Source: Azoarcus taiwanensis (GTDB lineage Bacteria; Pseudomonadota; Gammaproteobacteria; Burkholderiales; Rhodocyclaceae). From it: 64,000 nt of DNA. The translations under genes and the position numbers were made by a program. Positions within the stretch are counted from its first letter, which is position 1. Every line of letters starts with the position of its first letter. The stretch is taken from the NCBI RefSeq assembly GCF_012910885.1, contig NZ_WTVM01000001.1, forward strand, positions 1 through 64,000, given 5' to 3'. Below the pieces are notes generated by a model. It searched no databases. It was given only the letters and a program-made list of their open reading frames with translations, and was not told the origin of the DNA. This document shows positions 4,966 through 5,927 of this stretch, in pieces.

Positions 4966-5394
4966 TCAGATCTCGAGAACTTTGGGCTGCTGCGCGCTGT
5001 GCGGATGCTCTGCACCCGCGTAGCACTTCAGCTTCTTGAGCATCGCGTAGCCCAGCGGACCCTTCGGCAGCATTCCCTTCACTGCTTTCTCGAGCACGCG
5101 CGCCGGAAAGCGCTGCTGCATCTTGGTAAAACTGGTTTCGTAGATACCGCCCGGGAAACCGGTATGACGGTAGTACTTCTTGTCGGTGGCCTTGTTGCCG
5201 GTCACCCGCAGCTTGTCGACGTTGACGACGACGATGTAGTCGCCGGTATCGACGTGCGGAGTGTAGATGGCCTTGTGCTTGCCACGAAGACGACGGGCTA
5301 CTTCTGCTGCGAGACGGCCAAGAACCTTGTCCGATGCATCGACAACAAACCAATCGCGCGTGACTTCATGCGGCTTGGCAGAAAACGTTTTCAT
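4966..5394 (-). CDS. rplM: 50S ribosomal protein L13
   Basis: Early-assembly large-subunit protein. The 142-residue protein has the family motifs [11 protein letters not shown] near the N-terminus and GDYIVVVN, and HTGFPGG near the middle. The start at 5394 gives the standard MKTFSAKP N-terminus and has GAGGA upstream; longer in-frame extensions are not conserved. It is the first gene of rplM-rpsI, with its own sigma70 promoter at 5451-5480. Confidence 0.98.
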
Positions 5395-5450: not shown

Positions 5451-5480
5451 ATGTTAAATGAAGCGCCCGCCAGGTGTCAA
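5451..5480 (-). promoter_or_regulatory. sigma70 promoter for rplM-rpsI
   Basis: On the minus strand a consensus -35 TTGACA (5480-5475), an 18-base spacer and -10 TAACAT (5456-5451) lie about 57 bases upstream of the rplM start. They sit just after the terminator at 5532-5502, which separates this promoter from the upstream small transcript. Confidence 0.7.
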
Positions 5481-5501
5481 ACCCGATGGGCGAAAGAATG
5501 C

Positions 5502-5596
5502 AAAAAAAACGCAGTCCGCGTGGGACTGCGTTAAATCCACACCAAAGGAGGAGGGTGGAGGAGACACCGGGTGAATCGAGCAATTCGATTCGGTTG
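5502..5596 (-). ncRNA. Putative Fur-regulated small RNA (about 95 nt)
   Basis: Seen: a complete small transcription unit without a plausible ORF. After a promoter with an overlapping Fur box comes a 7-bp 5' hairpin (GAATCGA at 5591-5585 pairing with TCGATTC at 5579-5573). An unpaired C/U-rich segment follows with two anti-Shine-Dalgarno motifs, CUCCUCC (5563-5557) and CCUCCUCCUUU (5554-5544). The unit ends in a 10-bp terminator stem (5532-5523 with 5517-5508) and eight U. Known: Fur-repressed sRNAs (RyhB, PrrF, NrrF) lower iron-protein synthesis under iron limitation. Inferred: this is a functional analogue; I do not recognise its sequence. The 5' end is estimated from the -10 box. Confidence 0.72.
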
Positions 5597-5631
5597 AGAA
5601 TGATTATCCACACCCATCTCCCAGGCCGCAA
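5595..5631 (-). promoter_or_regulatory. sigma70 promoter with overlapping Fur box
   Basis: On the minus strand a -35 TTGCGG (5631-5626), a 17-base spacer and -10 GATAAT (5608-5603) are present. Positions 5595-5609 read TGAGAAT-G-ATTATCC on the plus strand, matching 12 of 14 bases of the 7-1-7 Fur consensus TGATAAT-N-ATTATCA and covering the -10 box. Fe-Fur would block RNA polymerase here. The promoter fires away from yhfA towards the small transcript. The remaining bases up to 5927 hold nothing else I can support. Confidence 0.75.
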
Positions 5632-5927
5632 GTGTTTTTTGTGCGCCGCACTACAAATCTTTTGATTTCGCGATAGACTGAATTTATACACCCCGTTTCT
5701 CTTGATCTGGCTCAATTCGCTTCGTCGAGAATCTCGTTTGCTCTGACGTCAATCCGCAGAATACCCGTTTCGGGCGACGCAATTGCTGCACTGCACCACG
5801 CATTCGTCACGCTTTGAGTCTCGGACGGGCCGGCTACCCGTCGAACTACATCCGCTACAATGCCGCGACTGTTTGCCTCCGGCCGCCCCGGATCGAGAGG
5901 CAGCCCAAAACTGGATTGGAGTCAGGC

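Follow-up and report, generated by a model that had tools for sequence, protein, structure and literature searches.

A stretch of 64,000 nucleotides of the Azoarcus taiwanensis genome (contig NZ_WTVM01000001.1, positions 1 to 64,000; hereafter the window) carries a compact transcription unit at 5502-5631. A family search of the neighbours places rplM behind the unit's terminator and a divergent OsmC-like gene and coq7 on the other flank. An earlier note on this DNA had proposed a self-contained unit here without naming a strand; the proposal holds, and the unit can now be assigned to the minus strand. Read from the sequence, it consists of a promoter, an operator-like palindrome, a conserved RNA and a terminator (Table 1). 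The -35 and -10 boxes and their spacing were confirmed, as was a Fur-like box that matches TGATAATNATTATCA at 12 of 14 positions and lies over the -10. Identity of the RNA as an rplM leader is ruled out, because the terminator sits between the two. A separate sigma-70-like promoter (TTGACA, 18, TAACAT; 5451-5480, minus strand) lies between the sRNA terminator and rplM, and is presumably rplM's own.

Table 1. Features of the transcription unit and its downstream neighbour, in window coordinates
Feature	Position	Strand	Basis
-35 box TTGCGG	5626..5631	-	read in sequence
-10 box GATAAT, 17-base spacer	5603..5608	-	sequence coordinates
Fur-like box GGATAATCATTCTCA across -10 and predicted transcript start	5595..5609	-	12/14; genome scan
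PhaR-type palindrome GTAGTGCGGCGCACAAA, core TGCGGCGCA at 5642-5650	5638..5654	-	2/17 mismatches to YTKNTGCRNYGCANMAR
Predicted sRNA, ~95 nt	5502..5596	-	fold z -5.68, terminator scan; start inferred from -10
5' hairpin region	5566..5594	-	one pair with two-sided change among 19 sequences
RF02278 match	5501..5566	-	62.7 bits, cut-off 50, E 3e-10
First CUCCUCC (anti-Shine-Dalgarno) stretch	5557..5563	-	kept in 19/19 orthologues
Second CUCCUCC (anti-Shine-Dalgarno) stretch	5547..5553	-	kept in 19/19 orthologues
Intrinsic terminator, 10 pairs and T-run	5502..5532	-	terminator scan, fold
rplM (ribosomal protein L13), downstream neighbour	4966..5394	-	PF00572, E 1.4e-46

The RNA and its family

The predicted transcript of about 95 nt, with the 5' hairpin and strong terminator originally described, was recovered by folding and by a terminator scan. 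Its folding energy is -34.1 kcal/mol, against a mean of -18.6 in 200 shuffles; in the fold, a middle hairpin lies between the 5' hairpin and the terminator, whose stem of 10 pairs leads into a T-run. The C/U-rich core is likewise present, but its description as unpaired was wrong in part: it forms a hairpin that leaves the CUCCUCC stretches exposed. Across 19 aligned rplM-type orthologues (18 of 22 transcripts, leaving out L012, L054, L143 and L216, plus L114), a 33-nt core has a single variable position, and that in one sequence only. Stem positions are paired in 99.6% of cases against 99.2% in shuffles, a narrow difference because most pairs are invariant; two-sided changes are seen at two pairs, one belonging to the 5' stem and the other to the terminator. 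That the unit is an unexpressed relic is very improbable, with core, stems and terminator maintained over these 19 orthologues and members of the family detected as RNA in three other genera.

To which family does the RNA belong? The Rfam covariance-model search proposed as a check identified it as RF02278 (Betaproteobacteria toxic sRNA). The match spans the whole model (positions 1-64 of 64) and is the sole one to reach its cut-off in the whole window among 4227 Rfam families searched. The RNA also shows the family's layout of two hairpins and CU-rich stretches, in which the second hairpin is an intrinsic terminator. The small RNA reading is therefore borne out by the family match and by the conserved core, stems and terminator. 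The claim that the RNA is undescribed does not survive, because members of RF02278 are already in print. The feature is the rplM-linked member of this "double-hairpin" sRNA family, and the RNA itself is of a known kind. With the search at the locus relaxed to E up to 10, it added a weak full-length NmsRb match and two chance-level matches. Membership in the NmsR family (RF02877) was rejected, as the full-length match at 5503-5593 (minus strand) reaches only 29.1 bits against a cut-off of 52. NmsR / NgncR_162-163 of Neisseria are likewise anti-Shine-Dalgarno sRNAs of central metabolism, but differ in being tied to the stringent response.

RF02278 matches occur in 141 of 150 sampled genomes of the same family (112 above the cut-off) and in 252 of 399 genomes of the order (153 above it). 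A core pattern was found 151-1137 nt upstream of rplM in 29 of 80 mostly named rplM loci, 76 of which offered at least 400 nt of upstream sequence; the other 51 lack the core by this pattern, which variant cores may escape. The linkage was seen in Thauera, Azonexus, Dechloromonas, Cupriavidus, Paraburkholderia, Burkholderia and Pandoraea, among others. The A. taiwanensis genome has a second RF02278 copy on another contig (C44:21074), with an identical 30-base core and different flanks. This C44 copy (L001, 1460-1564) is without the 5' hairpin and has a promoter of TTGCAT, 17, TACTAT. Elsewhere in the sample, one genome has five RF02278 copies within ~3.5 kb (G044:C1:3305531-3309062), a tandem expansion.

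Published members come from other genera. The Burkholderia cenocepacia RNAs ncS03, ncS05, ncS27 and ncS62 are RF02278 RNAs, and an upstream motif common to three of the four has been reported (PMC4603805, PMC5688073). Of these, ncS27/bdhR has two hairpins, CU-rich loops and a length of about 92-95 nt. In Burkholderia loci L070 and L076 the core lies 713-724 nt upstream of rplM, matching the rplM linkage in the window, so that ncS27 itself is probably the rplM-linked copy. Four members are described in Herbaspirillum (Hsnc059/063/086/107; PMC7011215). Inhibition of E. coli growth on cloning marks the RF02278 toxic sRNAs; S17 of Bordetella pertussis, a relative, is reported to be non-toxic, to be kept in betaproteobacteria and to repress through ribosome-binding sites (PMC11722255). 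According to the same account, a conserved 5' segment of 27 nt is identical among diverse betaproteobacteria and Aromatoleum has a likely homologue; the S17 promoter (-35 TTGCAT, 17, -10 TACTAT) has the boxes and spacing of the C44 copy. S17, whose likeness is taken from its published description, differs in its 190-nt precursor, its Bvg dependence and its position beside coq7. Processing has been described for both ncS27 (PMC5688073) and S17 (PMC11722255), and by analogy the 5' hairpin region of the window RNA is likely removed in the same way.

A PhaR-type palindrome at RF02278 promoters

When the upstream regions are compared side by side, a TGC-N3-GCA element stands out as conserved. In Ralstonia eutropha the site of PhaR, the sensor of polyhydroxybutyrate (PHB) granules, has been deduced as YTKNTGCRNYGCANMAR (PMC12849132), and the PhbF site of Herbaspirillum is given as TG[N]TGC[N]3GCAA (PMC3206438); the element fits both. 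The window palindrome agrees with YTKNTGCRNYGCANMAR at 15 of 17 positions (12 of the 14 defined ones) and ends 6 bases upstream of the -35; at the C44 copy the match is perfect and shares bases with the -35. With duplicates merged, 141 upstream regions were compared, and 115 of them contain TGCRNYGCA, where dinucleotide shuffles predict 5.25; it is present in 1 of 140 control windows. The 141 regions derive from 152 loci, after removal of L121 and L123 (core off-centre) and L221 and L241 (core absent). When the set is thinned to 86 representatives with a likeness below 70%, 65 have the pattern, against 0.56 expected under base shuffling, and the next half-site occurs in 5. It is absent from 26 of the 141 regions, including both rplM-linked loci of Cupriavidus (L053, L059) and both of Burkholderia (L070, L076); the two Burkholderia loci differ from the window copy in lacking the palindrome and also the 12/14 Fur-like box.

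The same palindrome is found at phasin promoters of these genomes. Within the 320 bases before the phasin domain it occurs in 19 of 28 phasin genes from eight of the genomes (28 of 30 loci, with L267 and L281 left out), 11 of the 19 carrying two copies at 55-60 bases, and after the domain it occurs in 0 of the 28. A. taiwanensis encodes PhaR (PF07879, 110.2 bits) and has three phasin genes, of which those at C199 and C125 have sites with at most one mismatch directly before them. At that threshold the genome has 80 PhaR-motif sites against 33 for the reversed pattern, so the motif alone is not specific; of eight perfect sites only that of the C44 copy was recognised as related, and most are not at recognisable PHB genes. 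Single matches were consequently not taken as proof, and the case is built on conservation, on the phasin genes and on a comparison with genomes that lack PhaR.

PhaR is encoded by 265 of the 399 genomes of the order. Outside the family of A. taiwanensis, the strict palindrome is present at 23 of 38 sRNA loci in genomes with PhaR and at 0 of 26 in genomes without it (Fisher p 1e-7, a value inflated by its disregard of common descent). The loci were hand-picked among the best RF02278 matches listed, a subset of the RF02278 genomes of the order, and 38 of 42 and 26 of 27 were kept, dropping L290, L292, L298 and L306 (off-centre) and L318 (core absent). The contrast also appears within families: in f4 the palindrome is present at 7 of 8 loci with PhaR and missing from the sole PhaR-less genome, and in f9 at 4 of 8 with PhaR and 0 of 1 without. 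In f42 it is found at 0 of 3 loci with PhaR and 0 of 9 without. The 15 of 38 loci in PhaR-encoding genomes that lack the motif include these three and 3 of 4 in f30. In the family of A. taiwanensis, two PhaR-less genomes have the sRNA: one keeps two sites, and the site of the other is off by one base. The PhaR gene of the former may be hidden in an assembly gap, since its two genus-mates encode PhaR. RF02278 is missing in 3 of 6 PhaR-less genomes of this family and in 6 of 144 PhaR-encoding ones. Joint loss of the sRNA and PhaR is ruled out across the order, where many PhaR-less genomes retain the sRNA, which is therefore independent of PhaR.

PhaR-less loci have a different element. An approximate TATTAGA-N5-CTAAT, a pattern drawn up after the sequences were seen, lies near the sRNA promoter at 23 of 26 PhaR-less loci and 3 of 38 PhaR-encoding ones, namely the three f42 loci that lack the PhaR motif. 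It lies upstream of the RF02278 core at L311, L313-L317, L319-L328 and L330-L336, and also at L293, L337 and L338. Operators at the sRNA gene can therefore change hands. This bears on a second reading of the palindrome, in which it is real but is read by a regulator other than PhaR or forms part of the core promoter. The naming of the regulator from the motif only and the many genomic motif sites away from PHB genes speak for such a reading, as does the exchange of palindromes in PhaR-less families. Against it, the identical palindrome recurs before phasin genes in these genomes and is gone where PhaR is gone, in all 26 such loci outside the family. Its distance from the core also varies, about -41 in the second-copy type and, for the rplM type, mostly between -70 and -115, which is unlike a core promoter element. 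Another reader of the site, or a core promoter role, seems unlikely. What would be expected of a PhaR-regulon member was found instead: a promoter palindrome that is conserved, a PhaR gene together with phasin palindromes, and absence of the palindrome where PhaR is absent, with one exception in the family itself. From the identity of the motif alone, we infer that PhaR binds at the palindrome.

The Fur-like box

Could iron be an input as well? The earlier note took the unit to be Fur-repressed, and compared it with RyhB, PrrF and NrrF, which share a Fur-linked design with BrrF. The RyhB, PrrF and NrrF families have Rfam entries, and they are absent from the cmscan results for the locus at E up to 10. 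Orthology with BrrF is ruled out, as BrrF sits downstream of hemP (PMC7377471) and the neighbours in the window are the rplM, OsmC and COQ7 genes.

The box itself is rare. Sites matching at 12 of 14 positions or better number two in the 4.2 Mb genome, against 0 for a reversed-pattern control, and the other one (L167, C24:10017) is found 76 bases ahead of a gene whose product has a TonB-receptor plug domain. In the one congeneric genome compared, the corresponding sequence is TGATAATTATTCCCA, also 12/14, in an otherwise diverged promoter. A looser consensus, TGAKAATNATTMTCA, was drawn up after the site was seen; with one mismatch allowed, the window box is unique in its own genome and its counterpart is one of three sites in the congener. 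Two mismatches give nine sites in the former and thirteen in the latter, with one control site each. Among the congener's two-mismatch sites, one is followed by a TonB-receptor gene at a distance of 115 bases and another by a globin gene at 103 bases. Two further suspected iron genes beside Fur-like sites had no Pfam match and were set aside.

Conservation of the box in close relatives, set beforehand as a test, does not extend beyond the genus: 12/14 is reached in the single congener and in 0 of 84 other aligned promoters, which rules out Fur control as a trait of RF02278 as a whole. Across the 86 promoters of the alignment, conservation covers the -10 and the last bases ahead of the transcript and leaves out the middle ATT. 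The PhaR-type palindrome is better conserved than the Fur-like box. When alignment columns are shuffled, at least one locus reaches 12/14 in 39% of runs and at least two in 8%; by the looser score these values fall to 11% and 0.6%. Random draws based on 34 orthologues of similar sequence bring an individual locus to 12/14 in 2.0% of cases and to the looser score in 0.4%.

Repression by Fur in this genus, with or without PhaR, which would have the sRNA made under iron limitation, is a tentative proposal. It draws on the position of a box of such rarity over the -10, on its twin before a TonB-receptor gene, on the return of 12/14 in a diverged congeneric promoter and on the low chance expectation under the looser score. 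Set against these are the 84 other promoters and the unkept ATT, the ease with which column shuffles produce 12/14 somewhere, and the dependence of the two 12/14 loci on each other, both being from the same genus. Low iron is also reported to cause no significant change of ncS03, ncS05 and ncS27 in Burkholderia (PMC5688073 Table 2). What remains of the original claim is a box shared by both genus genomes compared, and it is possible that the box is a genus-level Fur site.

Carbon storage as the proposed signal

The preferred reading, to which we assign a probability of about 0.7, is that the rplM-linked RF02278 sRNA is repressed by PhaR until PHB granules titrate the repressor away, and then damps mRNAs of carbon uptake and catabolism. 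In a cell without PHB, PhaR would hold the sRNA promoter off. Under carbon excess granules would form and PhaR would be titrated onto them, as described for the phasin gene phaP1 (PMC12849132), and the sRNA would be made together with the phasins. If the sRNA acts like ncS27 and S17, its CUCCUCC loops would then pair with Shine-Dalgarno regions in many mRNAs for carbon uptake and catabolism and lower their translation. The net effect would be to match carbon import to storage, and iron may act as a further input in this genus through the Fur-like box at the -10.

Several published observations are in keeping with control by PhaR. Glucose medium, biofilm growth and starvation induce ncS03, ncS05 and ncS27 (PMC5688073), and the rise in glucose medium was counted for the PhaR reading. 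A precedent comes from Sinorhizobium meliloti, where the sRNA gene mmgR also has a PhaR site, is directly repressed by PhaR and is bound by it in EMSA (PMC12542648), although MmgR differs in belonging to the alphaproteobacterial alpha-r8 family. Repression of targets by the window RNA is a prediction carried over from the relatives. Overexpression of ncS27 slows growth (PMC5688073), a review lists carbon-source genes among those affected by NcS27 (PMC10987360), and in both bacteria with studied targets the family or its relatives affect many genes (PMC10987360, PMC11722255).

The new element is the PhaR-type palindrome that the sequences suggest at RF02278 promoters. Sass et al. wrote in 2017 that the regulator of sRNA accumulation was yet to be found (PMC5688073), the S17 authors postulate an unidentified repressor at its promoter (PMC11722255), and a review calls riboregulation of PHB synthesis in Cupriavidus undeciphered. 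The published accounts of the family, as far as their text was available, name no regulator. The available text of PMC5688073, PMC11722255, PMC7011215 and PMC4603805 contains no statement of a PhaR-RF02278 link, and the 2019 NcS27 paper may contain one; PMC7011215 mentions PHB once, in a reference, and "phar" occurs in PMC4603805 only within "Pharmaceutical".

More broadly, and with somewhat less assurance, RF02278 sRNAs may well be the RNA arm of a PHB-granule sensor in much of Betaproteobacteria. Lineages that lost PhaR would have re-operated the sRNA through TATTAGA-N5-CTAAT, this genus would have added Fur, and PhaR could be the repressor postulated for S17. If true, PhaR would hold the phasin and sRNA genes off jointly and granules would release both, so that stored carbon lowers carbon import. 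A PhaR operator offers one testable answer to when this widespread RNA is made, and would link carbon storage to uptake at the RNA level, like the alphaproteobacterial PhaR-MmgR pair. As a side observation, PhaR-type palindromes (perfect, perfect and with one mismatch) also lie before genes that by eye resemble clpS, glutamate synthase and inorganic pyrophosphatase (L155, L156 and L163, respectively).
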